Source of the DNA: Cliona cf. orientalis
Taxonomy: Eukaryota; Porifera; Demospongiae; Clionaida; Clionaidae
DNA: 64,000 nucleotides
Assembly (NCBI GenBank): GCA_963930775.1
Contig: OZ005692.1
Span: 1,784,135-1,848,134, forward strand
Direction: 5' to 3'
The translations under genes were made by a program, and so were the position numbers. The notes under the pieces are model-generated. The model was not told the DNA's origin. It made no database searches and worked only from the letters and a program-made list of their open reading frames with translations. How positions within the stretch are numbered: position 1 is the stretch's first letter; the number at the start of each line of letters is the position of its first letter. Shown piece by piece: positions 10,094-64,000 of this stretch.

Positions 10094-10269
10094 TATTGCC
10101 GACTTGACCTTTGAATTGGGATCCTGGACCCACGTTGCAATCACATGATGACCACCCAAAGAAGCCATATTATGATACGTCCGATCTGCTGGTTGCAAAA
10201 TGCGCATGCGCTAAAGGGTGCGGCTCATCTGCACTCACATGCCCTCAGCTTAATAGTCCAAAAGTTGAA
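10094..10269. promoter_or_regulatory. Divergent promoter of unit 1 with NRF1-type site
   Basis: This is the gap between the start codon of the Roco gene (-) and exon 1 of reductase pseudogene B (+). The palindrome TGCGCATGCGCT at 10201-10212 matches the NRF1 consensus core GCGCATGCGC. A CACATGATG block at about 10142-10150 is also present in the unit 3 promoter. No TATA box stands out. Confidence 0.5.
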
Positions 10270-23452: not shown

Positions 23453-26400
23453 CAGTACAAATGCTAAGAGATCACCTCCATGCCCAAATGGCTCTATACA
23501 AAGTACACATGCTAAGAGATCACCTCCATGCCCAAATGGCTCTATACAAAGTACATGCACATGCTAAGAGATCACCTCCATGCCCAAATGGCTCTATACA
23601 CAGTACACATGCTAAGAGATCACCTCCATGCCCAAATGGCTCTATACAAAGTACACATGCTAAGAGATCACCTCCATGCCCAAATGGCTCTATACAATGA
23701 ACAAATGCAAAGAGATCACCTCCATGCCCAAATGGCTCTATACAAAGAACAGATGCAAAGAGATCACCTCCATGCCCAAATGGATACAAAGTACACTGGC
23801 ATGCTAAGAGATCACCTCCATGCCCAAATGGCTCTATACAAAGAACAGATGCAAAGAGATCACCTCCATGCCCAAATGGCTCTATACACAGTGCACATGC
23901 TAAGAGATCACCTCCATGCCCAAATGGCTCTATACAAAGTGCACATGCTAAGAGATCACCTCCATGCCCAAATGGCTCTATACACAGTACACATGCTAAG
24001 AGATCACCTCCATGCCCAAATGGCTCTATACACAGTACACATGCTAAGAGATCACCTCCATGCCCAAATGGCTCTATACAAAGTACACATGCTAATAGCT
24101 ATATCACTTCCATGCCCAAATGGCTCTATACAAAGAACAGATGCAAAGAGATCACCTCCATGCCCAAATGGATACAAAGTACACTGGCATGCTAAGAGAT
24201 CACCTCCATGCCCAAATGGCTCTATACAAAGAACAGATGCAAAGAGATCACCTCCGTGCCCAAATGGCTCTTAGACTATACACAGTACATATGCTAAGAG
24301 CTAGATCACCTCCATGCCCAAATGGCTCTATATATTATACAAAGTACACATGCTAAGAGATCACCTCCATGCCCAAATGGCTCTATACAAAGTGCACATG
24401 CTAAGAGATCACCTCCATGCCCAAATGGCTCTATACACAGTACACATGCTAAGAGATCACCTCCATGCCCAAATGGCTCTATACACAGTACACATGCTAA
24501 GAGATCACCTCCATGCCCAAATGGCTCTATACAAAGTACACATGCTAATATATCACTTCCATGCCCAAATGGCTCTATACAAAGAACAGATGCAAAGAGA
24601 TCACCTCCTGCCCAAATGGATACAAAGTACACTGGCATGCTAAGAGATCACCTCCATGCCCAAATGGCTCTATACAAAGAACAGATGCAAAGAGATCACC
24701 TCCGTGCCCAAATGGCTCTTAGACTATACACAGTACATATGCTAAGAGCTAGATCACCTCCATGCCCAAATGGCTCTATATATTATACAAAGTACACATG
24801 CTAAGAGATCACCTCCATGCCCAAATGGCTCTATACACAGTACACATGCTAGGAGATCACCTCCATGCCCAAATGGCTCAATATATACAAAGTACACATG
24901 CTAAGAGATCACCTCCATGCTCTATACACAGTATACACATGCTAAGAGATCACCTCCATGCCCAAATGGCTCTAAACAAGTGCACGTGCTAAGAGATCAC
25001 CTCCATGCCCAAATGGCTCTATACAAAGTACACATGCTAAGAGATCACCTCCATGCCCAAATGGCTCTATACACAGTGCACATGCTAAGAGATCACCTCC
25101 ATGCCCAAATGGCTCTATACAAAGTGCACATGCTAAGAGATCACCTACATGCCCAAATGGCTCTATACACAGTACACATGCTAAGAGATCACCTCCATGC
25201 CCAAATGGCTCTATACACAGTACACATGCTAAGAGATCACCTCCATGCCCAAATGGCTCTATACAAAGTACACATGCTAATATATCACTTCCATGCCCAA
25301 ATGGCTCTATACACAGTACACATGCTAAGAGATCACCTCCATGCCCAAATGGCTCTATACAAAGTACATGCACATGCTAAGAGATCACCTCCATGCCCAA
25401 ATGGCTCTATACAAAGAACAGATGCAAAGAGATCACCTCCATGCCCAAATGGCTCTATACAAAGTACACTGGCATGCTAAGAGATCCCAAATGGCTCTAT
25501 ACAAAGAACAGATGCAAAGAGATCACCTCCATGCCCAAATGGCTCTTAGACTATACACAGTACACATGCTAAGAGCTAGATCACCTCCATGCCCAAATGG
25601 CTCTATACACTGTACACATGCTAAGAGCTAGATCACCTCCATGCCCAAATGGCTCAATATATACAAAGTACACATGCTAAGAGATCACCTCCATGGACAA
25701 ATGGCTCTATATACAGTATACACATGCTAAGAGATCACCTCCATACCCAAATGGCTCTATACAAAGTACACATGCTAAGAGATCACCTCCATGCCCAAAT
25801 GGCTCTATACACAGTACACATGCTAGGAGATCACCTCCATGCCCAAATGGCTCTATACAAAGTACACATGCATGCTAAGAGATCAGCTCCATGCCCAAAT
25901 GGCACAACACACAGGATTTATAATACCAAGAGATTATACCTCCATGCCCAAATGGCTCAATACACAGACTGAGTATATAATACGCATAGTATACCAAGAG
26001 ATCACATTCATGCCCAAATGGCTCTATGCAAAGTATGCAATGATACTAATGGCTCCACACACTGTAGCTATAATATATACAATCATACTAATTAATAAGA
26101 GATCACTTCTATGGCCAAATGGCTCTATATAAAGTACTCATTAATATTTAATTTATACTAATTAAGAAATTACCTCCATGCCCAAATTGCTCTATACAAA
26201 ATACTCATAATATTATACTAAGAGATCAGCTCCATACCCATGCAAATGCTCAATTAACACACAGTATGCAATCATAATATTATTATAATACCAAGATATC
26301 ACCTCGGAGTCCATGCCCAAATGGCTCAACACACATATACTATAGCTATATACGATCATAATCATGCAGTGGCGTCTCTAGGCAATTATTTAACTGGGTG

Positions 26401-32242: not shown

Positions 32243-35200
32243 GTTCTGTGTAAGAAGCCATTTGGACATGGAGGTGATCTTTTAGTAGTATAACTATGTC
32301 CATTTGGGCATGAAGGTGATTACTTAGTATGTGTACTGTGTGTTGAGCCATTTGGGCATGGAGGTGATCTCTTAGTATGCATATTGTGTATATAGAGCCA
32401 TTTGGGCATGGAGCTAATTTCTTAGCATGTGTACTGTGTGCATGTTGAGCCATTTGGGCATGGAACTGATTTCTTAGCATGTGTACTGTGTGTTGAGCCA
32501 TTTGGGCATGGAGGTGATCTCTTAGTATGCGTACTGTGTACAAGAGCCATTTGGGCATGGAACTGATTTCTTAGTATATGTACTGTGTGTTGAGCCATTT
32601 GGGCATGGAACTGATTTCTTAGTATATGTACTGTGTGTTGAGCCATTTGGGCATGGAGGTGATCTCTTAGTATGCGTATTGTGTATATAGAGCCATTTGG
32701 GCATGGAGCTAATTTCTTAGCATATGTACTGTGTGTTATGTACAATGTGTTGAGCCATTTGGGCATGGAACTGATTTCTTAGTATATGTACTGTGTATAA
32801 GAGCCATTTGTGCATGGAGCTGATTTCTTAGCATGTGTACTGTGTGTTGAGCCATTTGGGTATGAAACTGATTTCTTAGTATATGTACTGTGTGTTGAGC
32901 CATTTGGGCATGGAGGTGATCTCTTAGTATGCGTACTGTGTATAAGAGCCATTTGTGCATGGAGCTGATTTCTTAGCATGTGTACTGTGTGTTGAGCCAT
33001 TTGTGCATGGAGCTGATTTCTTAGCATGTGTACTGTGTGTTGAGCCATTTGGGCATGGAGCTGATTTCTTAGCATATGTACTGTGTGTTGAGCCATTTGG
33101 GCATGGAGGTGATCTCTTAGTATGCGTACTGTGTACAAGAGCCATTTGGGCATGGAGCTGATTTCTTGGATTGTGTACTGTGTGTTGAGCCATTTGGGCA
33201 TGGAGGTGATCTCTTAGTATGCGTACTGTGTATAAGAGCCATTTGTGCATGGAGCTGATTTCTTAGCATGTGTACTGTGTGTTGAGCCATTCGGGCATGG
33301 AGCTGATCTCTTAGCATGTATACTGTGTGTTGAGCCATTTGGGCATGAAACTGATTTCTTAGTATATGTACTGTGTGTTGAGCCATTTGGGCATGGAGGT
33401 GATCTCTTAGTATGTGTACTGTGTATAAGAGCCATTTGTGCATGGAGCTGATTTCTTAGCATGTGTACTGTGTGTTGAGCCATTTGGGCATGAAACTGAT
33501 TTCTTAGTATATGTACTGTGTGTTGAGCCATTTGGGCATGGAGGTGATCTCTTAGTATGCGTACTGTGTATAAGAGCCATTTGTGCATGGAGCTGATTTC
33601 TTAGCATGTGTACTGTGTGTTGAGCCATTTGTGCATGGAGCTGATTTCTTAGCATGTGTACTGTGTGTTGAGCCATTTGGGCATGGAGCTGATTTCTTAG
33701 CATGTATACTGTGTGTTGAGCCATTTGGGCATGGAGGTGATCTCTTAGTATGCGTACTGTGTACAAGAGCCATTTGGGCATGGAGCTGATCTCTTGGATT
33801 GTGTACTGTGTGTTGAGCCATTTGGGCATGGAACTGATTTCTTAGTATATTATGTACTGTGTGTTGAGCCATTTGTGCATGGAGCTGATTTCTTAGCATG
33901 TGTACAGTGTGTTGAACCATTTGTGCATGGAGCTAATTTCTTAGCATGTGTGCTGTGTGTTGAGCCATTTGGGCATGAAGGTGATCTCTTAGTATGCGTA
34001 CTGTGTATAAGAGCCATTTGTGCATGGAGCTGATTTCTTAGCACGTGTACTGTGTGTTGAGCCATTTGTGCATGGAGCTGATTTCTTCGCATGTGTACTG
34101 TGTGTTGAGCCATTTGGGCATGGAGCTGATTTCTTAGCATGTGTACTGTGTGTTGAGCCATTTGGGCATGGAGGTGATCTCTTAGTATGCGTACTGTGTA
34201 CAAGAGCCATTTGGGCATGGAGTTGATCTCTTGGATTGTGTACTGTGTGTTGAGCCATTTGGGCATGGAACTGATTTCTTAGTATATGTACTGTGTGTTG
34301 AGCCATTTGTGCATGGAGCTGATTTCTTAGCATGTGTACAGTGTGTTGAACCATTTGTGCATGGAGCTGATTTCTTAGCATGTGTACTGTGTGTTGAGCC
34401 ATTTGTGCATGGAGCTGATTTCTTAGCATGTGTACTGTGTGTTGAGCCATTTGGGCATGAACTTCAAGGTGATCTCTTAGTATGCGTACTGTGTATAAGA
34501 GCCATTTGTGCATGGAGCTGATTTCTTAGCATGTGTACTGTGTGTTGAGCCATTTGGGCATGGAGGTGATCTCTTAGTATGCGTACTGTGTACAAGAGCC
34601 ATTTGGGCATGGAGTTGATCTCTTGGATTGTGTACTGTGTGTTGAGCCATTTGGGCATGGAACTGATTTCTTAGTATATGTACTGTGTGTTGAGCCATTT
34701 GTGCATGGAGCTGATTTCTTAGCATGTGTACAGTGTGTTGAACCATTTGTGCATGGAGCTGATTTCTTAGCATGTGTACTGTGTGTTGAGCCATTTGTGC
34801 ATGGAGCTGATTTCTTAGCATGTGTACTGTGTGTTGAGCCATTTGGGCATGAACTTCAAGGTGATCTCTTAGTATGCGTACTGTGTATAAGAGCCATTTG
34901 TGCATGGAGCTGATTTCTTAGCATGTGTACTGTGTGTTGAGCCATTTGTGCATGGAGCTGATTTCTTATCATGTTTACTGTGTGTTGAGCCATTTGGGCA
35001 TGGAGCTGATCTCTTAGCATGTGTACTGTGTGTTGAGCCATTTGGGCATGGAACTGATTTCTTAGTATAATATTATGTACTGTGTGTTGAGCCATTTGGG
35101 CATGGAGGTGATCTCTTAGTATGCGTACTGTGTATAAGAGCCATTTGTGCATGGAGCTAATTTTTTAGCATGTGTACTGTGTGTTGAGCCATTTGGGCAT

Positions 35201-38756: not shown

Positions 38757-41700
38757 CTACTCACAATACAATATACCTTTTAAATTTTCAGCTAATTGTG
38801 GTAGTCCAGCATCAATTAAAGCCTGAGTGAGTGCAGTCCAGGATACCTCACCATTATTGCCTTCTAACCATGTGGCTAGCATCTCACGGCATGCTTCCTC
38901 ATCATCATCTGAATGTCTGGTCTTGATCATGTCAATGTCTTCTCGTCCCATGTCCAGTGCTTTGGCCACCTCCTCCCACTCAGACCCTATGCTCTCAACA
39001 ACTCTGACCTTTCTCCCCCCACGACCTTCTAGCTCCTCAAGAGCTTTGATATTAAGTGTTGTACTAATGCCGGAGCCTAATAAGTATATTGTGTAAATTT
39101 TGTGATTGCTAAAATGTAATTGCAATAAAGTAGCACTACCTTGCTCTATATGTGGTGCCCCTGCCGGTTCGCCATCCATGTTCCAGTCCACTTTACGGGA
39201 CTCTTTTTTATCACATTTTGAAGATAATTCTGCTGTTACAGTATGTATGTATGCACGTAACAATAAAAAGATTTTACATGAACGAAGCATGTACACACAA
39301 GAAATTAAAAATAATAGGACATTGAATAGAATAATACCTTTTGCTTTCATATTATCAGAATCAACAATGGATGATTTTTCTTCAGACTCAATGTCTACTA
39401 CCACTATAGATGAGCTACTATCATTAACATCTTCAGCTTCCTGTACATTAACAATTTGATTAATATAGAGCTGTATGTTTTGTCTAGTAATAACTTAGGT
39501 TGAAACTTACAATCTCAATTGTATAACTTAATATGTCAGCTATTTCCGTTAGATTTGCTGCTGTTAAAGATTGGATGAAAATATCCCATGTTGGAGGCTG
39601 AAGGTCACGACCTCCATTCAACCACTCGGTGAACATCTCACGACACGCCTGTCTTGGTTGATAGTGTGCACCCATCTTTATCGTTTTAATCCTGGCTCCA
39701 TCAAAGCCTAAAGCCACAGCAACTTCATCCCATTCAGGAGCCACTTCCTTCATGATTCGAAGTTCAGTTCCATTGGGGAGCTTGAGCAGCTGAAGTTCAC
39801 GCAACGTAGGTGCATTACCTGTAAAGCAGTTGGCTAACACTAATAATTGTATGGCAGTCACTATAGCTATATTGTCTCACCATGTGGTTTTAGTTTGCAT
39901 TGCTGTTTCTCTTCCTCCCCTTCTACAGTGGCTGCTTTGGGAAGCTGTAGTTGTTTCCCTGCTAGTTCCTATTGAATTTCAGAGTTTATAAAAATTAACA
40001 CATGTTCGAACTGCAGTAAGTTTTAATGACTTACCAGTACATTTCTTCCAGCAAAGACACTGTATTGGTCCACAGTTTGGCGAAGTTGTTTGTATGTTTT
40101 CTTATTAGTCTTATCACTATCTCTCCATCTCAATAGATCTTGATAAAGCTGACTTTCACCTTTACTACTTGTTAAACTTCCTGAAATCAAGTAGCTTAGT
40201 TCATCCGTTGCTTTTCGAATAAATTTCAAAAGAAAATTATCTGAAGTTGTTTTGTTCTCATTGTTCTCATCCCATAATTCTTGAAGGGTGAGTGATTCTA
40301 TCTCAGTGTATGGCTCAAATGAGAGAAATCTTTTAGCAGGAACTGCTTTTCCAGAATCTGACAGAACAGCTGACGGGCTCTCACAGTTACTCACTAGAGC
40401 TTGTGAAAGGTCATACAATGTACAAAATCTTTTGTCAGAATTAAGATCAAAGGGATATCTTAGGGGAGAAGAGGCATCAATGAATGATTCAGTCACAGAT
40501 ACTCGTGGGCAAAACCTATTTTGGCATTCTAGAACAGTACACACCACTTCTAAACGATGCTTGAGACTCTTTTCTAAATTTTCTCTTTGAAATCGAGAGA
40601 TTACAATGACAGATTTATCTCCAACTACTTCAACAAGTGTTTCCATACCAAACTCTCTTCCCCAGAAAATGCCGTTCTTCCATATGGAACACTTTCGATG
40701 AATTCCTATTGTATCACTGCCATCACATGTAGATTCCAGAGCTAATGAGAATGCCAGTCTCAAAATTAAAACTTGAAGAAACCGAGATGTTAAAAATTGC
40801 TCCATATTCGTGCATTGCAAAGTCCATCCAAAATGAAAATCAAAATCAACTTCTGTTTCCCACACATTTCTTTGTGCTTCCAACGATATCAATCCTGGGA
40901 ATAGATAGTAGCGTTCCTTTGAATTCAGTGCTTGAGAGTGATCTTTTGAAATTTGCTTTAAAAGATCTTGATCTGATATTTCATGACAAAATTCGAGATG
41001 AGTAAAAAAAAGGCAATCAAAATGTTAGTATCACTCTCAGGAAAGCAATGAGCAATCTTTGATAAGGGCACCACACCAGTGTTTGATGATAAATCCTTGT
41101 GTTGTTTAAAGCCTTCTGGAGCAAAGACTGTGCCTGATATCTTTGAGAGCAGGAACTCTTTATCAATAACAACATAGCTATTTTCAACAGCTATTCTGTC
41201 CTTTAATAATAAGATATGACCCCTATCGTTAAGCTCCAAGCAGATTTTGTAAAGTTGATCAAAATTTGTGGGAAGGAACTCTAATACTCCTTTGGACTGC
41301 TGATTTTTTTATTGCTTCAGAAACAGTTTTTATAGTAACTGCTATGACATTGAACTTGTCTATCAAATATACAAGAAAGCAATGAGCATTGAATGTAATG
41401 GGTTCCTTTATTCGTAGTTTTTGACAACTTTTAATCAATAAACGGTGCAAATCACTCATGCCTGTTGATTCATGTAACTGACAGTTCATAGCAACAAAGC
41501 CAATATACTCCATATTAGTAAAACACTTTGTATCAAGGGTACTATAGATAGATTTTACTTTATCTTTGGGATTTACTTCCTTCAAAATGTCGGCATGGCT
41601 ACCAACAAGAATGATATGGGGTCTACACGTGACAGAAGCACATTGATTTTCCATGCAGAAATGATATCCAATAAAGGATATTTTTGATAATTTTATAATC

Positions 41701-44207
41701 ATCTTCAGAAATGTTGACTACAAGGAGGAATATTGGAGGAGTAGACTCTATAGCAGTCTGAAGAAGAGCAGCATGGCCACTGTAGAATTCTCTATGACCT
41801 GCAAAGTCATACAATGTAACACGACCGAAATGTCCACCCTCTAAGTCATGTGGTACTATTCCAACCGTCTTTTCATCAACTCCAGAGACTTTTCTTGAAG
41901 AAAAATATCGGGCAAAAATCCCTATCTCAGTCTTGAGTGCTGCAGTAAGGGTACTTTTTCCAACTAATGGATTTCCAACAACAAATACCTTGACTGGAGG
42001 TTGGAGTGGCTTATTTGTTCCCAGAGCTTTTTTATAATATGATTTATACATAATGCTTGTTTTGGCTCCATGTCTTATGAGATCTTTGATGATTTCTGAA
42101 TTTGTTGTCAACTGAAGTGGCACTTTGTTACTATTGCTCTTTATGTTTGGATCACAATGACCTTCAGTGAGTAAATGTTTCACTATAATAGTTTTTTCTG
42201 CTTTGCAAGCAAGATGAAGAGCAGTGTAGCCCTCAATGCCTCCTTTGATGTTTGGATCACAGTGAGCTACAGAGAGTAAGTAAGTCACTATGACAAAACT
42301 ATCAGCTTTGCATGCAAGATGAAGAGCAGTGTAGCCATCGCTGTTCAAGTCGTTAGGATTCCATAATAGTGTTCCTTTCATTGTTGAGAGTTTAAGTAGC
42401 TCACATAATCTATAATCTATGTTATGCAATGATATCAGCTCAAATACAACATCTGTTGTCATTTGTGCACCATTATCAATAAATGTCTTCATGATCCCTA
42501 AATCTGAAGTCAACTGAATTGGCATTCTCCCTTTGCTATCCAAGCAATTAGGATCACACTGACATTCAGTGAGTAGGTAATCAATCAACCTCTGTTTATC
42601 ACGTGACATACTACACATGCATATAACATGAAGGAGAGTGCTTCCATCTTCAGTTATGGTTTTGTGATTATCTACCAATGATTTTAGTATACATAACATT
42701 GTTGTATGATCAACCTTTGGGTTGTTCAGCCGTTTGATAATTGTCTGTGAACGTAGTGATACTCGATTATGTTGATAAACACAATTGATAATTTTCAAAT
42801 TTGTTGTCATGTCAATAGGCAAACTCCCCTCACTGTTTTCTACAATTGGATTGCACTCAGTTTGATCTATTAAATATAACACTAAAGCAAGTTTATCAGT
42901 TAGGCAAGCAATGTGAAGGACAGTATTTTCATCACTGTCTGAAGTATCCGGATTCCAACCATTCTCCAGTATATAATATTGCATTAGCTCAATTACTTTG
43001 TCATTCTCAATGTTGGATAGGCAGAGAACATGAGGAAAGTGAACTCCATTCACTGTTTTCCAATTTGGATTAATGTTTTTGATTTCATCGATAGATATCT
43101 TCCTGCTATTGCTCAATAGCTTCGTCAGCATCTGTGAAGAAATTCTTGATATGGATCGTAGTATGAGTTGAAGCAGGGTATCACCATCAGCTGTCTTACC
43201 GTCGGGTATGGCTATAGTCATAGAGTGAAGAACACTATTCCTTAACCAATTCAAGAATACTGTGGAAGATATTTGTATTAAGCATTTCTCAGACTGACAT
43301 ATTAGTTCAAGGAAATTGTTACCATCCGCTGTAGTCCCTCTTAATGTATCAATTTTCATGTCATTGAGATCAGTGGAGTCACTTAACCACTTCAGCATCA
43401 ATGCTGAAGACATTTGTGATACAAGAATCTCAGATTGGTACACCAATTGAAGGATAGTATCACCATCAGCTGTCCTCAAATCAGGTTTAAAATATCTAAT
43501 AATACAACTGGCACTACGAGAATTTGATATTACTGCTGATGGCATATGTGCTATGTGCATCTTGGAACTACCCACAAGTTGAAGAATATTGTCCCCATTT
43601 GCAGTTTTCCACATTTGATCCTCAATGCTGCTGTATACCCATGTATCAGTTCTTAAGATAATAAATTTCATGAGATTGACAGTCGTCTTAATTCTGTTTG
43701 GACTTAACATCTCATCTGAGGATATATGCTGGCAGAGGTATACAGCAATGGAAGGTTCACAGCATAATCAAGAGGTTCTGATTGGTTGATACTATCTCTC
43801 ATTAATAGATTTAGTTGCTGCTTGTTGACAAGATATTTAACGATATAAAAGTTACCACACTGACAAGCATGATGTAATAGACTTTGGTTGCTTTTATTCA
43901 CTATATTAGGATCACAATTATACTTTTCAAATAATAGCTTAACAACATTAATGTGACCATATCGACAAGCATAATACAGTGGACTTTCACCACTCTTTGT
44001 TACCACATTAGGATCACAGCCATACTTTTCAATGAGTATCTCAACAATGTCTAACCAACCTTGTTTACAGGCTTGATGGAGAGGAGTATCACCAAAACGA
44101 GGGTGTACATATCTGACATTATTCTGGTTTGCTATCTCAAGAACAAGATGTTTGTAGCCATTAGAACAAGCCCGGTACAGAGAATCTGATTTATCTGCAA
44201 TGGACAT
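38757..44207 (-). pseudogene. Ankyrin-Roc-COR-death-death gene, unit 2, with four frameshifts
   Basis: Exons: 44207-40035, 39968-39881, 39818-39511, 39440-39338, 39232-39140, 39076-38757. Domain order matches units 1 and 3 (ankyrin, variant repeats, Roc with GNPLVGKST, COR, two death domains), but the small third exon of the others is missing; splice phases still fit. Exon 1 is broken four times: a 10-bp deletion near 43760, a 4-bp net insertion near 41655, one extra A in a poly-A run near 41310, and an indel in a T run near 41010. Both homopolymer changes could be sequencing errors, but the 10-bp and 4-bp changes are harder to explain that way. Splice sites and both death-domain exons remain intact and conserved, so decay is recent, or shorter products are made. 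I call it a probable pseudogene. An in-frame ATG at 44306 lies upstream; the conserved start is MSIADKSDSLYR. Confidence 0.8.
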
Positions 44208-44360
44208 CTTACTGAACTTGATCTTTGAATTGACATACCTGAGATCCACCCACTTTGCATGTTGATAGGCACGTGATGAATGAATAACAATATTCATTAA
44301 TGACAATAATTGTAGTTGTGGTATTATGCAGGTTGGCTGTGAATAATATTATATTATTAT

Positions 44361-46670: not shown

Positions 46671-49600
46671 CTACTCACAATACAATATACCTTTTAAATT
46701 ATCAGCTAATTGTGGTAGTCCAGCATCAATCAAAGCCTGAGTGAGTGCAGTCCAGGATACCTCACCATTATAATTGCTTTCTAACCATGTGGCTAGCATC
46801 TCACGGCATGCTTCCTCATCATGATCTGAATGTCTGGTCTTGATCATGTCAATGTCTTCTTGTCCCATGTCCAGTGCTTTGGCCACCTCCTCCCACTCAG
46901 ACCCTATACTCTCAACAACTCTGACCTTTCTCCCACCACGACCTTCTAGCTCCTCAAGAGCTTTGATATTCAGCACTATTTTAATGCCAGAGCCTACATA
47001 GATTGCAATTATAAAATTTAATATTTTATACGTATGAGATTATAGCTAGAAGTATGTGAGTGTATACCTTGCTTGGCTTGTAGTGCCCCAGCGAGTTCAC
47101 TGTTACCACTTGTTGTAGTAGATTCACTTTCACATTTTGCAGATTTAACTGTGTGCACACATAGATAATGATATTTGGTACATAGCGGCATCAAAAAGAG
47201 GAATATACCTTGAATACTACCACTAACGGCATCAGTAGTGGCAGTGGTCAATGCCTCTTGAGTTTTGGTGTCTACTGTCATTAGAGCCTCATCAACACTA
47301 GCACCCTAAAGATAATTATAGATAAAGACAGAGTATATGTAAATTATGCCCGAGTTAATAAGAGGGCTCTGTTAAGTACTATACTAGCCGAGAGAATAAT
47401 AAAATGGGACATATTATTGTGGCAAGAATTATACAGAAAACAATGAAGTGACGATGGCAGCACCAAATACAGTAAATACACAATATCATGTGGACATGTA
47501 TAGAGACTTGCTTGTATAATCTAGTATGGGTGCACTGGCCATGGCATACAGGTGGACGTACGGACCCACACGCATGCACCCCCCCCCCCCCATGCATGGT
47601 GACATTACATCTTTTTTCATATACATGAAACTTACAGTCTTAATAAATTTCAACAAGTCAGTTATTTCTGGTAGATTCGCTGCTCTTAAAGACTGGATGA
47701 GAACATCCCATGTTGGAGGTCGAAGGTCGTGACCTCCAGCCAACCAATCGGTGAACATCTTCAAACAGGCATCTTCTGGTCGCCAGGGTGCCCCCATCTC
47801 TATCGCCTCAATCCTAGGTCCATTGAAGCCAAGAGCAATTGCCACCTGCTTCCATTTTGGTGTCACTCTCTCCATGATTCTCACAGACTCCCTTCCTTTG
47901 TCAAATTCAAGCAGTTGTAGCTCATATAATTTAGGCGTTTTGCCTAATAAATTTTCAATCATGAAAACAAATTCTCATTCAATGAATAGCCATCCACTAT
48001 TACATACCTTTAACAGTAATGGGGAGCCCATCGTGTGTAACTCCTGCAGATTGTGTTTCATCTCCTGCAGCAGCACCAGTATCACTTTGATCCTTGTCAC
48101 CATCTAATTGTCTCGTTTTGATCATGTCAGAATCCTTCAGTGCTTCAGCCATTTTCTCTACATTTCCATCTAAAATGACATAATGTATGTGACATAACAA
48201 TATAGTTCAAACAGCTATGACTGTATTACCTTCTACCCTCGACGCTGAAAGTAAATTTCGGTCTTCATTAATTTGTGATTTTAATTTTCCCTCATTTGAT
48301 AATGGTTCTTGCTGATTTCCTGCAAGATCCTATTATTATGATTATGGTTAATAACGTACATAATGAGTCAGCAAATTTGTGTACTTAGCAATACTTACCA
48401 GTACATTTCTTCCAACAAAGACACTGTATCGATCCATTGCTTGACGAAAATCTTGGTAGGTTTTTTTATTAGTCTTATCACTATCTCTCCATCTTGATAG
48501 ATCTTGATAAAGCTGATTTTCACTTGTATCACTTGTCGAACTTCCTGAAACTGCTTTAATTAAATAGCTTAGTTCATCTGTCGCTTTTTGAATGAACTTG
48601 GCAAAAAAGTTATTTTCCATCACTTTATTTTCGTTTTTCTCATCACATAACTCTTGAATAGTGGGTAAATTCATCTCAAGATAAGGCTCAAATGACAAAA
48701 TAATTTTGGCAGGAACAGTACAAAATGGAAATACAACATCTGGGTGCCTACAGTCAGCTCTTACAACAGCTGTAGTCAGATCTTGGAGTGAACAGGTATG
48801 ATTAGTAGTGTCTGCAGGATTTAATGGATACTGGAGACGTGAAGAGGAATCAACAAATGACTCAGTTATAACAACCCTTGGACAAAATTGCTCTTTGCAT
48901 TGCAGAATGGTGCTGATGACAGCTGATCGAAGATGAACACACTGTAAGAGATTTGCTTTTCGGAAGCGTGCTAAAACAATGACGGATTTGTTATCTGATG
49001 TGACTTCAACTAGGGTCTGCATGCCAAATACACTCCCCCAAAATACTCCATTCTTCCATAAATGGCAATTTCGATGAATTCCCAGATTGGTACTCTGGCA
49101 AGCTTTGTCGCACGATGCTTCAAGAGCAAAAGAGAAGGCTAGCCTCAATAGTAAAACTTGTAGAAACCGAGAGCTGAAGAACTGTTCCTGATGAATACAT
49201 TTCAAAATCCATCCAAAGTTACAATCATACACAGTTGATTGTATTTGCCATACAGAGTCATTGGCTTTTAGGGAGATTAAGCCAGGAAATAAGTAGTAGC
49301 GCTCACCAGATACTTTGGGATATTGTTCAGATATGAGCTGGTGAAGAGCTTGATCTGAAATTTCTTGACAGAATTCAAGGTGAGTTAAAAAGGCAATCAG
49401 ACTATCTACATCTTTTTTGCGAACTTCAACTTCAGAAAGCCAGCTTGTTACTTTTGACAAAGGTACTACACCAGTGTTAGTAGACAATTCATTGTATTGC
49501 TTAAAGCCTTTTGGAGCAAAAATAGCACCAGGTACTTTAGAAAGCAGAAATTCTTTATTAATGACAACTAAACTGTTTTCAATAGCCATTCTGTCCTTTA

Positions 49601-52600
49601 ATAATAAGATATGGCTTCTATCATTAAGTTCCAAGCAGATTTTGTAAAGTGCATCAAAATTTGTGGGAAGGAACTCCAATACTCCTTCCTTTGACTGTTG
49701 ATTCTTTATCGTTTCAGAAATAGTTTTCATCGTAACTGCTGCAGCAGTAACAGCTGTGCAATTTATGAATTTGTCTATCAAATAGACGAGAAAGCAATGA
49801 GCATTGAACGTAATTGGTTCACTTATTCGTAGTTCTTGACAATTTTTGATCAATAAATGACGTAAATCACTCATACCTGTCGATTCATGTAACTGACAGT
49901 TCATAGCAACAAAACCAATATACTCCATGTTGGTGAAACACTTTCCATCAAGGGTAGCAATGATGGTTGTTATTTTATCCTTAGGATTTACTTCTTTCAA
50001 AGTGTCAGCATGGCTACCAACAAGAATGATATGGGGTTTACAAGTGACAGAAGCACATTGATTTTCTAGAAACGATATCCAATAAAGGATATTTTTGATA
50101 ATTTCATCATCATCTTCAGAAAGATTGACTACAAGAAGGAATATTGGAGGAGTGGACTGTATAGCAGTCTGAAGAAGAGCAGCATGGCCACTGTAGAATT
50201 CTCTATGACCTGCAAAGTCATACAATGTAACACGGCCAAAATGTCCACTCTCAAAGTCATGTGGTACTATTCCAACTGTCTTTTCATCAACTCCAGATAC
50301 TCTTCCTGAAGAAAAAAATCGAATAATTCCTCTCTCAGTTTTGAGAGCTGCAGTAAGGGTACTTTTTCCAACTGATGGATTTCCAACAACAAATACTTTG
50401 ACTGGAGGTTGGAGTGGTTTATTTGTTCCCAGAGCTTTTTTATGAGATTTATACATAATGCTTGTTTTGGCTCCATGTCTTATTAGAACTTTAATGATTT
50501 CTGGATTTATTGTCATTTGAAGCAGCACTTCTTCACTATTGCTTTTGACATTTGGATCACAGTAAGCTACAGAAAGTAAATAATTCACTACGATATAACT
50601 GTCAGCTTTGCAAGCGAGATGAAGAGCAGTGTAGCCATCACTATTCATGTCATTAGGATTTATTAACTTTGTTCCTTTTCTTATTGAGATTTGAAACAAT
50701 TCACTTACTCTAGAATCTGTGTCATGTATTAAAATCAGTTTAAATGCAACATCTGACGTCAATTGTGCACCATGCTCAACCAGTGATTTCATGATCCTTA
50801 AATCTGAAGTAAGCTGAATTGGCATTTCCTCATTTTTGTTCTTGATATTTGGATCACAGTGAGCTACATGGAGTAAAAGTTCTACTATAGTAGAATTACC
50901 AGCTATACAAGCTAGATGAAGGGCGGTGTAGCCATCAATACCTCCTTTGATGTTTGGATTACAGTGCAAAGAAAGTAAAAGGATTACTGTGCCAGTGCGG
51001 TCAGCTTTGCAAGCAAGATGAAGGGCAGTGTAACCATCATAATCCACATCATCAGGGTTCCAGGTTGTTAATAGTAGTTTGATTAATGAATGCTTATTTG
51101 CTTCACTTTCCATAGCCACAAATCTAAGTACTATCTTTGGAGTTACTCTCGCTCCACTTTCAATAAGTAACTTAGCAACGTCCAAATTTCTTGTCACCTC
51201 CAATAGTGAATTAAAAAGGTAATTTGCACTTGGATCACATTTAGCTTCTGTAAGCAAATAAATAACAATTGCTGGCTTATTGTGAGAATCAGCAAGTTCT
51301 AAAGCATTATTACCTTCTCTATTTACGTCTGTAGGATTCCATAACATTGTTCCTTTTCTTGATGAGATAGCAAATAAATCAACTGCTGTAGACTCTGTTA
51401 TATACACTGATGTTATTACTTGAAATAAAATGTCAGTTGTTATTTTCGCACCATGTTCAACAAGTATCTTCATGATCTCTGAATCAGAAGTCAACTGAAG
51501 TGGCAATCGCCCTTTGCTATCCAAGCAATTAGGATCACACTGACATTCAGTGAGTAGGTATTCAAACAACCATTTTTTATTATGTGATGTGCATCCCATG
51601 GCCACAGTCACAGTGTCATGCAGTAGAGTGCTTCCATCATTAGTTATGGTTTTAAGTAAATTCACCAATGATTGCATCATTGTTGTATCATTAATCAACA
51701 ATCGATTGTTCAGCCATTTACTAATTGTCTTTAAAGGTAATGACACTTGGTAATGTTGACAAAGATAATTAATAGCTTCCAAATTTGTTGTTAAGTCAAC
51801 AGGCAAACTCTTTTCATGGTTTTCTATATTTGGATTACACTGAGCTTGATCCATTAAATATGACATTAAAGCAAGTTTATCAGTTTGGCAAGCAAAATGA
51901 AGGACAGTATTTCCTTCACCATCCAAAGTATCTGGATTCCAACCATTCTCCAGTATATAATATTGCATTAATTGAGTTACTTTGTCATTCTCAATGTTGG
52001 ATAGGCAGAGAACATGAGGAAAGTGAGCTCCATCCACTGTTTTCCATTTTGGATTAACATTTTTCATTTCATTGATAGTTATCTTTCTGCTACTACTCAA
52101 TAGCTTTACCAGCATCTGTGAAGAAATTCTTGATATAGACATATCTGATCGTAGTATGAGTTGAAGGAGGGTATGACCATCAGCTGTCTTACAGTCGGGT
52201 ATGGCTGTGGTCACAGAACGAAGAACTGTCTTCCTTAACCACTTCAAAAATACTGTGGAAGATATTTGTAACAAGCATTTCTCAGACTGACATACTAGTT
52301 CAAGGAAATTACTACCATCCGCTGTAATCCTATCTAATGTAACAATTTTCATGAGATCAGTTGATTCACTTAGCCACTTTATCATCACTGCTGAAGAAAT
52401 TTGTGATACGACTCTTCGAGATTGGCATACCACTTCAAGGATACTATCACCATCAGCTGTCCTCAGATCAGGTTTGAAATATTCAATAATACAACTGGCA
52501 TTATGAGAAATGGACATTAATATTACTGTTGATGGTATACGTGCTATATGCATCTTGGAACTACCCACAAGTTGAAGAATATTGTCCCCATTGGCAGTTT

Positions 52601-53501
52601 TCCATAGTGGATCCTCAATGCTACCGTATACCATCCTGAAGATAATAAATTTAATGAGATTGACCGTCGTCTTGATTCTGTTTGGACTTAACATCTCATC
52701 TGAGGATATATACTGACAGAGGTATATACCAATGGAAGGTTTGTCATTGTTTATAGCGTAATCAAGAGGTTCTGATTGGTTGATACTATCTCTGATTAAT
52801 GGATTTAGGTGCTGCTTATTGATAAGATATTTAATAAAATCAATGTTACCATGATATTGACAAGCATAATGCAATAGAGTTTGGTTGCTCTCAGTTGTCA
52901 CACTAGGGTCACAACCACACTTTTCAATAAGTAGCTTAATAAAACCAATGTTACCACATCGACAAGCATAATGCAGTAGACTTTCACCACTCTCAGTCAC
53001 AGCATTGGGGTCACAACCATATTCAATGAGTAGCATAACAATCTTAATTTGACCATATTGATAAGCATAGTAAAGTAAACTTTCATTACTGTTAGTCACC
53101 ATGTTGGGATCACAACTATACTTCTCAATGAGTAGCTTAACAATGTCAATGTGACCATACAGACAAGCATACTGCAGCAGACTTCCATTACTCTCAGTCA
53201 CCACATTAGGATCACAGCCATACTTTTCAATGAGTAGTGTAACAATATCATTGTGACCATATTGACAAGCAAAATGCAGTAGATTTAACTTATTCTTAGT
53301 CACAACATTAGGATCACAACCATACTCTTCAATGAACATCTCAACAATGTCTAACCAACCTCGTTTACAGGCTTGATGGAGAGGAGTATCACCGAAACGA
53401 GGATGTACATAATTCACGCTATTCTGGTTTGCTAACTCGAGAATCCGATGTTTAAAGCCGAGAGAACAAGCCCAGTAAAGAGAGTCATCCGCTGTCGACA
53501 T
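46671..53501 (-). CDS. Ankyrin-Roc-COR protein with two C-terminal death domains, unit 3 (7 exons, intact)
   Basis: Exons: 53501-48399, 48329-48230, 48169-48008, 47943-47636, 47305-47209, 47148-47068, 46993-46671. The spliced 6174 nt give 2057 residues in one frame. Ankyrin repeats occupy about 1-260, followed by variant TADG..L.L..S repeats (about 300-500) and further ankyrins to about 1010. The Roc GTPase starts near 1030 (P-loop GNPSVGKST, DFAGH, G4 variant SHAD) and leads into COR. Exon 1 ends in a half-length death-domain-like stretch (LYQDLSRWRDSDKTNKKTY). Exon 4 is death domain 1 (WKQVAIALGF.. PPTWDVLIQSL) and exon 7 is death domain 2 (WEEVAKALDM.. SWTALTQALIDAGL). Short Glu/Ser-rich linker exons lie between. 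It equals DAPK1 architecture without the kinase. By family it should be a cytosolic GTP-dependent scaffold in death-fold signalling; the ligand is unknown. It is head to head with reductase copy C at a 118-bp distance. Confidence 0.92.
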
Positions 53502-53619
53502 AATATTACTGAACTACCCACAGCAATCACATGATGAGGTTGGCTGCTAGGTGCGCATGCGCAGAAAGGGTGTGGCTCCTCTGCGATCATATGCATAATC
53601 TCCGCCCCAAAATCTAGAA
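53502..53619. promoter_or_regulatory. Bidirectional promoter of unit 3 and reductase copy C with NRF1 palindrome
   Basis: Only 118 bp separate the two divergent start codons. The palindrome TGCGCATGCGCA at 53552-53563 is a full match to the NRF1 consensus. CACATGATG lies at about 53528-53536, as in the unit 1 promoter. There is no clear TATA box. Co-regulation of the two genes is inferred, not shown. Confidence 0.6.
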
Positions 53620-57565
<3,946 letters not shown>

Positions 57566-57912: not shown

Positions 57913-58095
57913 ATCAGCAAGCTTGGACGTTGAATAGGACATACTGGTTGTTTTGCTTATGACAACAAAATTTAACAACAGTATACATGAACACACAGCA
58001 CACCTTTAAAAGAGTCAGGTTCTACTCAAGCTTGGACGTTGACTGGTACGTACTGGTTGTTTCGCTTGCGACAACAAAATTTAACGGCAGTATAA
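57913..58095. repeat. Tandem duplication of the 3' end of the death-effector membrane gene
   Basis: AGCTTGGACGTTGA..ACTGGTTGTTT..GACAACAAAATTTAAC occurs at about 57919 and again at about 58029, where it is the coding end of the gene at 58026-61207. The outer copy is diverged and lies in or beyond the 3' UTR. Confidence 0.75.
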
Positions 58096-61000
58096 TATAT
58101 GATGTACACAACCAGGCCAATGAATAGTGCGAGTAGAAATAGAGCAATGGGAAGAGCACTCGTCAGCAAAACCTCCGATAGGTGCTCCTTTACTTCAAAG
58201 TGTAAAATACCGCCTTCATATTCTGTATATGCGACAATGCACACCTTTCCAGTTTCAAATAATCCAAGATCGACAGTGCACTCCCTCTCTTCATCGATAT
58301 CTGAGATATTGCAAATCTGCTGAGCTGGCGTTGTGATCACAGATGTTACATTAATGGTTAAATTCAGGTTGTACTTGTACTGGGGGTCGATAATTACACT
58401 GTGGAAGTTGTAATACCCTCGTTTCTCAACTGAATACGAGTCGTCAAAATATGCACCTTTCTTGAACGTTTTGTCACTGAAAATTGTACAGTCCGGCGAC
58501 CTATTACATTTTTCCGAATCAAATTCTTTACTCTCGGGCCCGTACGTGATATAAGCATATCCTATTGGCCCAAGTCCTGCATCAGATTCTAGTGGTTCAT
58601 CCATGTCTACAACTCTAATAGAATTGTGATCGACCGGTGAGATGGTGTAACGTATCATGGATCCTGGCAATAGGTAATGGTGGGTGTAATTTTGGCCTCC
58701 GTTGACGTTTGATTTTTGCCAGTGAATGATATCATGCTTTGTCGGTAGACGATCACAGCTCATATTAAAGCGATAAACTTTTATGACACTTTCTTCGAGA
58801 CGGTACCCCACCTTTGGAAATAGCCGGAACTGGCGGTCATAGTACTGATTTAGGTCCGTGATAATAACCGCACTTTTGTTGTACACAAAGATATCATCGG
58901 ATGTCTGCATGTGGAATACATGTCTCCACACTGTGCCACAAAGACTACCAGCCAGTGCCAGAGTTATCACAAGAGCTAGGATCCAGCAGCAGCATAGGAT
59001 TGCTTTACAGTGGTGGGTACGTGAATCAGGTCCAGTAGTTGACGTTGGGACTGGCAAAATAGATGTGTCCACTGCTACATGTATAATATTATTATTATGC
59101 AGATAATTGTTATGATGATTGTAATATTTCTTATTATAATAATATAATAGCCTTGTTTCCTGGCTTCCCCCCCCCCCCCCCCCCCCCCAAAAAATTCTTG
59201 AGATATAGGTTTAATATTGAAATTCTTAGAACAGGATAGAGAAACAAGCCCAATATAAATAAAGACGAGTGTAGACAATAATTATGTACCATTCATGATT
59301 GGTTTAATCAAGATCAACGGAACTGCACCATATTGTTCAGCACAATAACTAGTGTGAGAAGGTTTACATACACGGTATGATCCCAGTGACAAGTAAAACA
59401 CACAATACCACCTGGTCCTCTGTCTTTTGCACAATACTACACAAACATGCACAGGAAATCATACAATATTATTATTATTAATTACCTTGTGAGCTGAATT
59501 CGGAATCACTAGTTGAAGTCCCTTCAGATTCTATTGGACTTAGTTGACCTATAACAGAAAATATTACCCAGGCCACACGCCAACATTTCGATAATTAGCT
59601 AGCTAGCTAGCTGTAGGATAGTTGTTTTGTGGGGTGGGGGAGGTAGATGAAGGATAGGGATATACATGTATCTATATACAGGGGTAGGTAAATTATGCCA
59701 TCTTTTGGCCTATAATGTTATTCTCAATGCTCAAAAACTCCCTAATAAGGCCAGACCAATTAAATAAGTTGTTGCACGGATTCGCTCGCTCCAATTTTTG
59801 CGCAAACAGAAAAAATTTTTTAATTAAGTTGGGTGGAGCTTATGTACAGTAGAGTGGTTTTTGTATTCTATCTTGATTCCTTAGTCCTAGATAATAACAT
59901 TAGTCTATCTTAATTAGATTGTGGTCTGTAACCATACCCCAATTAATTGCTTTTTTTTCGATCGCTCGGTCCAATTTTTACCTCACAATATCCGAGCAAC
60001 AACAAATTAAATTGGTCTGGCCTTATGCTCCAGAAGTGCACCTATTGCCCATTATACTCAAGTTGAACCGACTATAACGTTAACAAAATTATTGATATGA
60101 GACATGAGGAGACACAGTTATAGAGTGCAGCCATTCTCAAATGCACACCTATTATGCTTCAAAATTATGCCAGCATAATTTACCTACTCCTGTACATCTA
60201 TAGAGCTAGATCTGGCACACATACCTAGAGTCCTCAAGCTTTCGTCAAAGTCCCTGCTCCTGTGATCTTGCCTGTCTCGGAACCGACGATAGCCATAGCG
60301 ACCACTTATCAAAAGCCTGGACCTTGCGTATGCAGCTCCATGGCCAGTGTCAGACGATTGGTCTAAAGAGAATTTTCAACGACTATTACACAATTATTTA
60401 GCTAATACATCATCTCTTACACTTTTATACCTGTGGTTATGTAGGCTTCGGTTTGGGGATCTGTATAATAATATTATTACAAAAACAAAGAAATTAACGA
60501 CGATAATATTATTATTGGAAAATGTTGCACAATGCTTTATGGAACGAACCTTCTTCGATATCCCTCACTTCCTCAATTTCATCCAGGCCTACAGACTTGT
60601 GGTATTTGTTGAGACATATCAGACACTGCACTGCCCTTGTACTTCCCAATTTCAAAAGAGCTCTCCGCAGGTGGTAAGTCTTCTTTGGGGCGATGATGTC
60701 ATTCTGTACCAATCGAATGAAAAGATCTGGAAGGTGCTTCAAGTGGCGAGGGTTGACGTTCAAGAAACGCCTCTTCGAGAATCGGTATTTCAATCCTTCT
60801 TCAAGATCAAGCCCCCTTGCTTTCTTTGCAATTCTCGTTAGACACTCAAAGAATTGCAATTCCTCGGTCATTTGATTTTGATCAGAAGCAGTTGGCAGGG
60901 AGAGCCCGTATTCTTGTAGGCAGTTATCACCAACGAGATAGGTACCCCTCAAGTCACCTCCAAGTAGACTGAGTCCATGAGCAAACCAGTATAAGGTCTT

Positions 61001-61207
61001 TTCCTTGTCGTTCTGAAAACACTTCTTGAGAAGAAAATTGTGAATCTCACTCGGTGTTTTCAACCCCTCTGCAACAGCATATTCTACCCTCAAGTAAGGG
61101 TACAGTGGCAGCTTCAGGAATTCCACACTTTCTCCAGGCGATATTTGCTCGTCTACGTGTCGCAACCACCGGAGAATCGGGTCTAGTAGAGATGGAGAAG
61201 TCGCCAT
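58026..61207 (-). CDS. Death-effector-like N-terminus fused to a two-pass membrane protein (5 exons)
   Basis: Exons: 61207-60550, 60460-60431, 60362-60225, 59548-59486, 59074-58026. Every junction is GT-AG and in phase, and 1938 nt give 645 residues. Residues 113-202 look like a death-effector-type helical bundle (DLFIRLVQNDIIAPKK..LRRALLKLG), and residues 8-95 may be a second, more diverged death fold. A basic Ser/Arg-rich linker (about 230-310) precedes a hydrophobic segment at about 321-343 (ILCCCWILALVITLALAGSL). About 255 residues with several N-glycosylation sequons and cysteines follow, then a second hydrophobic segment at about 599-624 and a 21-residue basic tail. This predicts both termini in the cytosol and a large ectodomain. 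I do not recognise the ectodomain family. A receptor or adaptor role is inference. The start is the first in-frame ATG. The DED call is moderate: the usual RxDL motif is not evident. Introns contain a MITE (59677-60194) and a poly-C run near 59167. Confidence 0.75.
59677..60194. mobile_element. MITE in intron 3 of the death-effector membrane gene
   Basis: The ends TACAGGGGTAGGTAAATTAT and the inverted ATAATTTACCTACTCCTGTA bound 518 bp, with TA at both outer edges. An internal inverted pair (GGCCAGACCAATT near 59751; AATTGGTCTGGCC near 60013) lies inside. It has no ORF. Confidence 0.8.
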
Positions 61208-61557
61208 TCTGCAACGGTTGGGTAATCTGAGAGCTCCACGGATTGCGCATGCGTAGTTATGTAACACGACGAATGATTGGTAAAGGATCGCGTACGCTAA
61301 GGCTGCGTGCTAATGATGTCATGATGATTTAATGCTAGTTTTCATCATGAATGTTTCACTATTGTCGTCACAAAATGTACAGTTTATCATACACCTTTGG
61401 CAACGTTATTTTTACAACATTTTCAGTTCTGGAAACAATAGCTATAATTATAGCTTGCCACTGAGCTACAATTATATCATAGCTATTTGACAATAGAATA
61501 GCTGATTGTAGTGCTGACTATAGCTACCCAGTGAGTGCACTGATTCACAATCCAACG
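61208..61557. promoter_or_regulatory. Divergent promoter region with NRF1-type site
   Basis: These 350 bp separate the start codons of the death-effector membrane gene (-) and the beta-helix gene (+). TTGCGCATGCGTA at 61243-61255 contains the GCGCATGCG core and lies close to the minus-strand start. The right half is AT-rich. Confidence 0.45.
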
Positions 61558-64000
61558 ATGTATAAATATCTTAGCATTAAATTTTACTTAGTTATTCTGA
61601 TAGCTTTAGTTGCGTCTGTCGGGTGTAAAGAATTTTATGTTTCATCTTCAACAGCTAATAGTTCGTCATGTAGTGCCAGTACTAGTACTGATTCATGTAT
61701 GAGCCTCTCTGATATTCCAGCCGCAGTCTCTGATCTAGATGCAGAATCAAACCTTACCATCATCTTTTTGCCCGGAAACCATACTCTCAACTCTACAGAT
61801 TTTTCTCTTATGATTTCCCATGTCACAATGAAATCACAAGGAAGAGATGGACCTTCCGGTTATGTGATAAAGTGTCATAATTCTTCAAAATTTCAATTCA
61901 GATTTAATACTTTAGTCCATATCAGTGGATTAATATTCAATGGATGCTTTGAAACTGAAATATATCACGTTAATGAGTTTGTGGTGGAAGATTGTTGGCT
62001 ATTTGGCAGGGAAACACCATTAAATCTTGGTAGAGGCTTGGTGGTGACACAGAGCGAGCTGAGCATTAGGAGAACTTATTTCACATCATTTCATGGAAGT
62101 GCATCACACAAAGGTGGGGCAGTGTACTGCTCACAAAGCACTGTTCATCTGTCTGATTGTGTGCTCACAGAGAATAGTGCTATTAGCGGAGCAGCGGTGT
62201 ATGTTGAAGACAATAGTACTCTGATTGTGTCAAACTGTTCATTTTCCAACCACACTCTGTGCAGCAACAGTTATAATGAAACTGAAAATATTCAATGTTA
62301 TGGTATTGTGTATGCGAATGCTTCTTTTATCGTCCTATCAGACTCTAGTTTCAGTAATAACAGTTTATGTCCGGGGAATTTCACGACTAGCAGCTGTAAC
62401 AGTGGAGTACTTGGTGCACTGAAGAGCAATATCAGTATCTCTGGGTGTACTTTCATGGGAAATACAGCCTTTAATGGAGGTGTTATTCACTGCCATGAGG
62501 GAGCAAAGCTTACGATTTCTGACACAAAATTTACTCAAAATAGAGCAATAAATAATGGTGGAGTTATACATCAATTAGATTGCGATGTCCACATCTTTGG
62601 GAGTAACTTCAGTGACAACATTGGCAAATTAGGTGGCATACTGTATCATACTGCTGTGCAACCAGTATATGAGGCTAGACTTGTAATAAAAGACAGTAGC
62701 TTTCACAAAAATTCAGCAGACAGAGGTGGTGGAATCTATTTCTTCAGAGGTACCACAATAATGAATGGGTGCCATTTTAGTTTTAATACAGCCTCTGAAC
62801 ATGGAGGAGCAATGTTCCTGGCTTTCTCAAAGGCCACAATGATCAGCAACCAGTTTAAGAATAATGAAGCAGTGACACTTGGAGGAGCCCTTCGAGCAAT
62901 GAATGATAGCCAAGTGTACATTTTAGGCTCTGTTTTGTTTGAAAACAATTCAGCATTTTACGGAGCAGCCGTACACCTTTACAGAGCTAAAAAGATTGAA
63001 TTTAATGGTACCATCATGATTACTAGAAATAATGGCAATCTTGGAACCATTGGTGTAATAGATAGTGAAATAAGCTTTTTCGGTAATGTATCCTTTGCTG
63101 ACAATGTTGGATCCCTTTTCTGTTATGGTAGCTACATTTACTTCGGAGGTACTGTAACTTTCAGTCGACACAAGATTGAAAGCTTAATGACAGGTTACAA
63201 TAATACACTCGAAAAGAAGGAAGGGGGCTGTATAACACTACTTCTGAGCCAAATCAGTATCCATACTGATCACAACAATATTGGGTCATTATCGTTGAGA
63301 GAGAGTATTGCAATCAATGGAGGTGGACTGCTAGCAATCTCCAGTATATAGCATTAATATTTTTGACACTACACTTAATATACTTGATAATAGTGCAATC
63401 GACACAGGAGGTGGGGTCTATATGTACCAAAGCAAGCTGTATATTAGAGGTTCTGCAAATATTTCCTGCAACAGAGCTGAAAATTTTGGTGGTGGAATAC
63501 ATGCTATTAGCTCAATGATTGTCCTACACATTCAGCATACTGATAGAGTCCATCTTTATCTACAATCAAACATAGCAAGTAGAGGTGGAAGTGCCTGCTT
63601 GGAAACGAATTCAAAATTTTTTATCACACAATTATTGATCCAGTTCAGAAATAATGATTCATATGAAGCAGTAAGGGCTATCCACTTGCTCAATAACAGG
63701 GCAGATTATGGAGGGGCACTTTTTATAGCAGATAAAACAATAAGAGGTACATGCTCAAGCGGGCAGGAGAATACAATAACGGCATTTACGCAGTCAGAAT
63801 GCTTCTTTCAGATAATTGCAATAGCAAATGACTCGTATACTTTTAGAGACGCATTTGAATTTGCTAACAATTCTGCCAATGCTTCAGGTTCGCTGCTTTA
63901 TGGAGGATTGTTAGACAGGTGTACAGTGAGTACTATTAATAAAAGTCCCACAAAATATTCCAGCATTCCTGGATATGTGGATGATATCATCGATGACACT
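61558..64000 (+). CDS. Secreted or surface parallel-beta-helix (Pmp-like repeat) protein, partial, with one frameshift
   Basis: The first ATG is at 61558 (MYKYLSIKFYLVILIALVAS), followed by a signal-peptide-like stretch ending near VGCKEF. The mature part is built of repeats of about 20-30 residues with GGA(V/I)x(C/F) turns and FxxN..A..GG patterns (for example SHKGGAVYC, DRGGGIYFF, SEHGGAMFL, VTLGGALRA), typical of right-handed parallel beta-helices such as polymorphic-membrane-protein repeats. N-glycosylation sequons are abundant, which fits export. The frame stops at 63349-63351, but the same repeat style resumes in the next frame from 63353 (INIFDTTLNILDNSA..TGGGVY) and stays open for 216 codons to the window end. 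A one-base gain within the TATATA at 63344-63350 would explain it, by mutation or read error. Function is probably adhesion or recognition at the cell surface, by repeat type only. Confidence 0.75.

Follow-up and report, generated by a model that had tools for sequence, protein, structure and literature searches.

The stretch of the Cliona cf. orientalis genome analysed here (the window; 64,000 nucleotides of contig C4, C4:1784135-1848134) carries on its minus strand, at 58026..61207, a five-exon gene whose predicted product joins a divergent tandem death effector domain (DED) module to a two-pass membrane unit. Joined, the five exons amount to 1938 nucleotides (nt) with a single stop and encode 645 amino acids. 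All four introns are of the GT-AG type and in phase 1, and therefore each of the three small exons (30, 138 and 63 nt) is a multiple of three in length. Exon 1 (60550..61207, minus strand, as are all the others) provides the start codon and the tandem death-effector-like module, residues 1-219. Exon 2 (60431..60460; 30 nt, phase 1-1), exon 3 (60225..60362; 138 nt, phase 1-1) and exon 4 (59486..59548; 63 nt, phase 1-1) encode the linker, with an Arg-rich stretch in exon 3 and a Ser/Thr/Glu-rich composition in exon 4, and the splice sites of these three exons are shared with a tandem paralogue. Exon 5 (58026..59074) contains the remainder of the linker, membrane segment 1, an APD1-4-like ectodomain, membrane segment 2, a short basic tail and the stop. 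A partial duplicate of the coding 3' end is located directly past this stop (57920..58006, minus strand; C4:1842054-1842140) and is 62% identical over 29 residues; the tandem paralogue also has such a duplicate (C4:1851023-1851109), which is 59% identical.

The flexible linker of the window protein spans about residues 220-316. Hydropathy analysis predicts two membrane segments, with 19-residue windows starting at residues 317-329 and 594-613, and seven N-glycosylation sequons are present, all between residues 362 and 552. Both membrane segments and the glycosylation-rich ectodomain had been proposed in the original prediction and are borne out. The linker had also been described as basic, which does not hold: residues 220-300 contain 10 Lys and Arg against 14 Asp and Glu, and only the middle is Arg-rich. 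The C-terminal tail is basic and about 17 residues long.

The tandem paralogue (L025, C4:1851-1853 kb) begins about 8 kb from the window gene and its introns, again GT-AG, occupy the same four positions. Its exon lengths differ from those of the window gene by +6, 0, -3, +6 and -375 nt, all multiples of three, and its reading frame of 523 residues is intact. At aligned positions the introns of the two copies are 80%, 93%, 49% and 85% identical and the exons 83-91%. Since introns so alike mark L025 as a fairly recent duplicate, the shared splice sites alone are weak evidence for the gene model. More weight appears due to the frame-keeping differences in exon length, to the ratio of nonsynonymous to synonymous substitutions (dN/dS), and to intron 3, which is barely alignable (404 of 676 bases gapped) next to an exon 4 that is 90% identical. 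The dN/dS of the window gene against L025 is 0.39 overall (519 codons) and, by part, 0.25 for exon 1 (219 codons), 0.43 for the linker (96 codons) and 0.46 for the ectodomain (126 codons), values which indicate that the gene is under purifying selection. A dN/dS of 0.9 in the last 47 codons was considered as a sign of relaxed selection and rejected, as it rests on very few changes. These comparisons confirm the predicted gene model, and the locus appears to be a genuine gene with a single 645-residue product of five exons, as had been proposed: the same joins are found in the sequence, and L025 conserves both splice positions and frame. In L025 about 125 ectodomain residues are gone with the frame kept (L025 positions 3130-3803), and it is possible that this copy serves as a decoy or a binder of something else.

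A further paralogue, L026, is more distant, with 47% identity to the window gene in exon 1 and 35% in the ectodomain. Its exon 1 has a phase-1 donor, and three stretches of 48, 153 and 54 nt, chosen by eye as candidate linker exons, are each flanked by AG and GT. One of these is the counterpart of exon 3 (TESSDQ...DEKIATL as compared to TDQSSD...DESLRTL in the window gene). The start of the last exon of L026 is ambiguous, three acceptors being in phase.

Queries made from the terminal exons (first and last) of the window gene and its paralogues were run against the whole genome (216.8 Mb, 149 contigs), with an expectation value (E) below 1e-4 for the N-terminal exon; family counts are lower bounds where families are large. 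Matches at E 0.12 or worse (on C2, C5 and C6 and at C9:268011) and the short 3' duplicates (C4:1842054, C4:1851023) were excluded from the family count. The N-terminal exon was found at eight loci (C4:1844685, C4:1852828, C4:2113698, C12:6972176, C12:6975662, C12:9259010, C12:9261807 and C10:7160672), and in all eight a match to the last exon, with its membrane segment, ectodomain and second membrane segment, lies downstream on the same strand at a distance of 311-1756 bases. Judged from these matches, the window gene is one of eight two-part loci in the Cliona cf. orientalis genome.

Two observations speak against such a uniform picture. Among the 12 loci of the last exon genome-wide, four have no match to the N-terminal exon (C4:2130329, C4:2219952, C4:2320925 and C14:1966090), and a stop is present inside the match at C4:2219952 and C4:2320925. 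At C12:9261807 and C10:7160672 the last-exon match is divided between two frames, with stops where the parts meet, and these two may be frameshifted copies. The four ectodomain loci without a DED exon match would suit an arrangement of two adjoining but separate genes, one for a soluble DED protein and the other for a two-pass membrane protein. We rejected this arrangement as highly improbable, because order and strand are kept, at 0.3-1.8 kb apart, in all eight loci with the DED exon, and because the linker exons, all in phase 1, keep the frame and are under selection (dN/dS 0.43). The claim that the locus holds one gene rather than two is thus upheld.

The N-terminal tandem module

The original prediction had described the N-terminus as death-effector-like. 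The DED relation stands and can be refined to a tandem pair, whose fold is predicted from sequence. Three family members match the Pfam DED family (PF01335), namely L030 at 4.4e-7 (30.5 bits), L031 at 9.4e-7 (29.4 bits) and L035 at 5.2e-4 (20.6 bits), and exon 1 of the window gene is linked to L031 at 1.1e-6 and to L030 at 2.5e-5 in the whole-genome search. None of the eight members reaches the 35.9 bits of the curated Pfam cut-off for DED, and the other five gave no Pfam DED match at thresholds of E 10, 5 or 1. L030 also has a sub-threshold Pfam Death match (0.0052), which would fit a death fold whose kind is left unspecified. SHOCT_2 and CARD matches in L035 were below the cut-off and were rejected.

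A profile of the eight members with the N-terminal exon, the window copy included (A5), was compared with 891 open reading frames (ORFs). It matches the ORF of L040 (C9:268008; the same as L001) at 7.4e-13 in one alignment over both units (profile positions 14-201), the best of ten residue-shuffled sets reaching 0.17. The tandem DED of L040 is the best Pfam DED match of the genome (5.5e-21) and matches caspase-8 in the PDB at 6.7e-15. A Peptidase_C14 match is located 1.1 kb downstream on the same strand, and the two are perhaps parts of one caspase-8-like gene. A low-confidence single-sequence structure model of exon 1 places six helices at residues 8-98, six at 115-205 and a last one at 212-218. 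The profile match relates residues 1-219 to the tandem DED of the caspase-8-like locus, and we infer that these residues form a divergent tandem DED module.

Several results weigh against this assignment. The window N-terminus itself has no Pfam death-fold match at E 10 and no match in the PDB sequence search, and profiles of five and of eight N-terminal family members found no death-fold chain in the PDB. The 891 ORFs are taken from loci fetched in this analysis and do not form a neutral database. Within this set the other top DED loci match the A5 profile at 0.0018 (L005), 0.044 (L006), 0.051 (L007) and 0.11 (L008), and L002-L004 are unmatched at E 1. Profile-profile comparison with seven DED proteins of the same genome gave 31% over the complete module (score 31.8, as compared to a maximum of 18.8 in 50 shuffles); taken singly, the second unit gave 53% and the first 3.7%. 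Structure prediction of the N-terminus and the ectodomain, which had been proposed as a check, yielded the two six-helix runs, but the predicted local distance difference test (pLDDT) score is a poor 47 for exon 1 and is 41 for the last exon. In a Foldseek search with the exon 1 model, the 50 matches listed contained no death fold and consisted largely of proteins with helical repeats (E 0.19 or higher), and nothing was matched at E 0.001. An R-x-D-L sequence towards the end of each unit has a role in DEDs. Of the seven DED controls from the same genome, all carry it in their second unit and five in their first, and none of the eight family members has it at these places (L031 has RTDL elsewhere). 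Since it is missing there, assembly with caspases may fail.

The lack of R-x-D-L at the DED places in all eight members also suits a partner that caps or blocks. The protein might then be a membrane-bound brake, in which the DED pair holds DED caspases or adaptors inactive at the endoplasmic reticulum or plasma membrane. Such a brake would resemble the bifunctional apoptosis regulator (BAR, RNF47), whose DED-like domain holds its partners inactive in this way and which is described in the accessible part of its report as an endoplasmic reticulum protein with a membrane-anchored DED-like domain (PMC4021871). The Pfam scan found no catalytic domain in the window protein, in keeping with a brake. 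However, a simple brake would have no need of a large, glycosylated ectodomain whose evolution outpaces that of the DED exon, and the RING and SAM domains of BAR were not found in the window protein. We consider a brake rather unlikely.

The membrane unit and its ectodomain

The ectodomain of the family members has no significant match to a Pfam family. The best direct match to APD1-4_N is 0.024, in L031, and the window copy reaches neither PF16040 nor PF16041. The genome contains 22 PF16040 and 19 PF16041 matches (E up to 1), and 20 PF16040 loci were fetched for profile comparison. Ten of these were aligned first, eight of which were already in a list of weak hits, which makes the selection a favourable one. 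With these ten loci, hhalign gave 95.2% for the ectodomain (P 2.6e-8, score 59.7) as compared to maximum control scores of 18.0 in 50 column shuffles and 13.8 reversed, and 97.3% when membrane segment 1 was included. Because of the pre-selection of eight of the ten, the comparison was repeated with the ten unused loci and the result was nearly unchanged (92.2%, P 5.7e-7, score 54.2; maximum 17.6 in 50 shuffles and 18.1 reversed). By eye, YLLPGS-like and GYY-like landmarks are common to the family and the APD1-4-like proteins. By these profile comparisons, the window ectodomain appears to be distantly related to that of the plant APD1-4 RING E3 ligases, so that the membrane unit, being of a divergent APD1-4 type, would not be new in itself.

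Plant APD1-4 proteins have two membrane segments around an ectodomain. The window protein shares with them (PF16040, PF16041) and with their relatives in its own genome the order of membrane segment, apparently related ectodomain and membrane segment. In contrast to the plant ligases, it has no RING domain by Pfam and ends after a tail of only about 17 residues; likewise, no RING match was found at E 0.1 in nine scanned APD1-4-like ORFs of the same genome. Three of the APD1-4-like proteins (L056, L060 and L064) end in PPPPYK or PPPPYS, which presumably resemble WW-domain ligands and are perhaps a means to call in an E3 ligase.

Some C-terminal tails contain a Y-x-x-hydrophobic sequence, which we take to be a sorting motif. 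It is present in the window copy (YVPV), L025, L026, L027, L020 and L043, and such tails would suit a protein of the endolysosomal or secretory pathway, in which the APD1-4-type unit would serve membrane trafficking or the quality control of organelles and the DED module would couple organelle damage to cell death. The tails of L030, L031, L044 and L046, however, are without this sequence, and the function of plant APD1-4 is itself unresolved. According to the accessible text of PMC13210498, these transmembrane RING E3 ligases are required for pollen mitosis II and are associated with V-ATPase and Rab, and no substrate of theirs is known; the family is also listed in the available part of PMC6118397. 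An endolysosomal role seems unlikely to us.

Searches of the PDB with the family profiles A1, A2 and A5 gave no credible match. A KASH domain was considered for the last membrane segment and rejected as below the cut-off (E 4.3 in the window copy, 0.077 in L025). Weak Pfam matches to TMEM154, DAG1, Ninjurin, VAS1_LD, Glyco_hydro_25, GET4 and DUF7125, each below the cut-off and confined to one or two members, were rejected as well.

Surroundings of the locus

Three long copies of an ankyrin-Roc GTPase gene, alike by eye, are located elsewhere in the window on the minus strand (5810-10210, 40023-44348 and 48351-53513). The 40-44 kb copy is broken up between several frames. The copy at 48351-53513, the only one scanned with Pfam, has ankyrin repeats, with Roc just below the cut-off. 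Two ORFs on the same strand match the Death domain, at 38760-39494 (1.6e-12), with a hydrophobic stretch by eye, and at 47489-47974 (4.6e-5). The latter may form the last exon of an ankyrin-Roc gene that lies just upstream of it. On the other side of the two-part gene, a divergently transcribed neighbour (61483-64000, plus strand) has Chlamydia PMP-like repeats (1.1e-6). A long ORF just upstream of the ectodomain-only locus L027 (positions 2-2350) resembles this neighbour and has many hydrophobic stretches by eye.

Elsewhere in the genome, DED matches cluster on C10 near 7.04-7.22 Mb and on C4 near 11.16-11.24 Mb. Adjoining the C10 family member is a DED-like protein with a hydrophobic end (L046:2823-3545; C10:7164073-7164795), which matches at 3.1e-5, below the cut-off, and has 10 genome-wide matches at E 0.01, eight of them on C10. 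The window also contains two long arrays of short repeats about 10 kb apart (23516-25480 and 33989-34525), open in several frames, long GA/CT tracts at about 55400-55540 and 57180-57350, and a G run at about 59170-59190 inside intron 4.

Possible role and relation to known proteins

The reading that we favour, with roughly even confidence, is that the protein is a membrane platform that recruits DED caspases. As a death-effector module would be cytosolic and the sequons outside, the N-terminus and the C-terminal tail are predicted to face the cytosol and the ectodomain the exterior, presumably at the cell surface. The ectodomain would cluster or change its conformation upon contact with a ligand, a neighbouring cell or membrane stress, and clustering would bring several tandem DEDs together. 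Once assembled, these would recruit DED-containing caspases or DED adaptors directly, so that no separate step of a death-domain receptor and FADD would be required, and the presumed outcome is cell killing. Possible partners exist, as the same genome contains 65 DED and 47 caspase-domain matches, counted by exon.

Other sponges also contain DED proteins: as far as the available text of each report goes, two haplosclerid species have many (PMC4704026) and Dysidea avara has seven (PMC12909245). For Amphimedon, one study regards a receptor, FADD and CASP8 as together forming a basal death-inducing complex, of which the adaptor alone was supersaturable (accessible part of PMC13012725), and this makes DED assembly a plausible output in such animals. 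The ectodomain of the window gene evolves faster than exon 1 (dN/dS 0.46 against 0.25; identity to L026 35% against 47%), and a faster-changing ectodomain together with the duplications would fit a role in recognition.

The closest counterpart of the N-terminal module is the caspase-8-type tandem DED prodomain, as in C9:268008, which has caspase-8, FADD and c-FLIP chains of the PDB as its relatives. Both have two N-terminal DED units in tandem. The window protein differs in that a linker and a membrane unit follow in place of a protease domain, in that R-x-D-L is missing at the DED places, and in that it does not attain the cut-off of the Pfam DED model. Death receptors of the Fas/TNFR1 type have an N-terminal ectodomain and one membrane segment. 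The likeness to them would be one of role, the passing of a membrane signal to caspase-8 through death folds. Their death domain is C-terminal (PMC8195603, in its accessible part), whereas the window protein has an N-terminal DED module and two membrane segments.

Membrane-anchored DED proteins of other kinds are already in print, and the suggestion of a new class of receptor in the original prediction was accordingly too strong. An expansion in oyster, as far as its report is accessible, consists of proteins with a Cys-rich ectodomain, a membrane segment, a DED and TRADD-N (PMC8195603). They resemble the window protein in that a DED faces the cytosol in a membrane protein that also has an ectodomain, and differ in that the ectodomain comes first and is Cys-rich, one membrane helix is named, and TRADD-N and variable C-terminal modules are present. 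BAR is alike in its membrane-anchored DED-like domain, which binds DED caspases, and differs in its RING and SAM domains; a large ectodomain is not mentioned for BAR in the available text (PMC4021871). A literature search of titles and abstract openings, with most subscription papers outside its scope, found no report of a DED fused to a two-pass membrane unit. On present sequence evidence, the window gene is a variant among membrane-anchored DED proteins, one whose ectodomain relatives can now be named.

It is tempting to go further and to propose a receptor class with the tandem DED in the receptor itself, in which an APD1-4-type ectodomain recruits DED caspases without a death-domain receptor and FADD, the ubiquitin-ligase output of the plant proteins having given way to a death-effector output located at the opposite end. 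We regard this extension as possible but doubtful. If the proposed role is true, the family would provide an adaptor-free short-cut from the membrane to a DED caspase, which would bear on the first wiring of extrinsic apoptosis, and an ectodomain known from plant E3 ligases would be tied to death signalling in animals.

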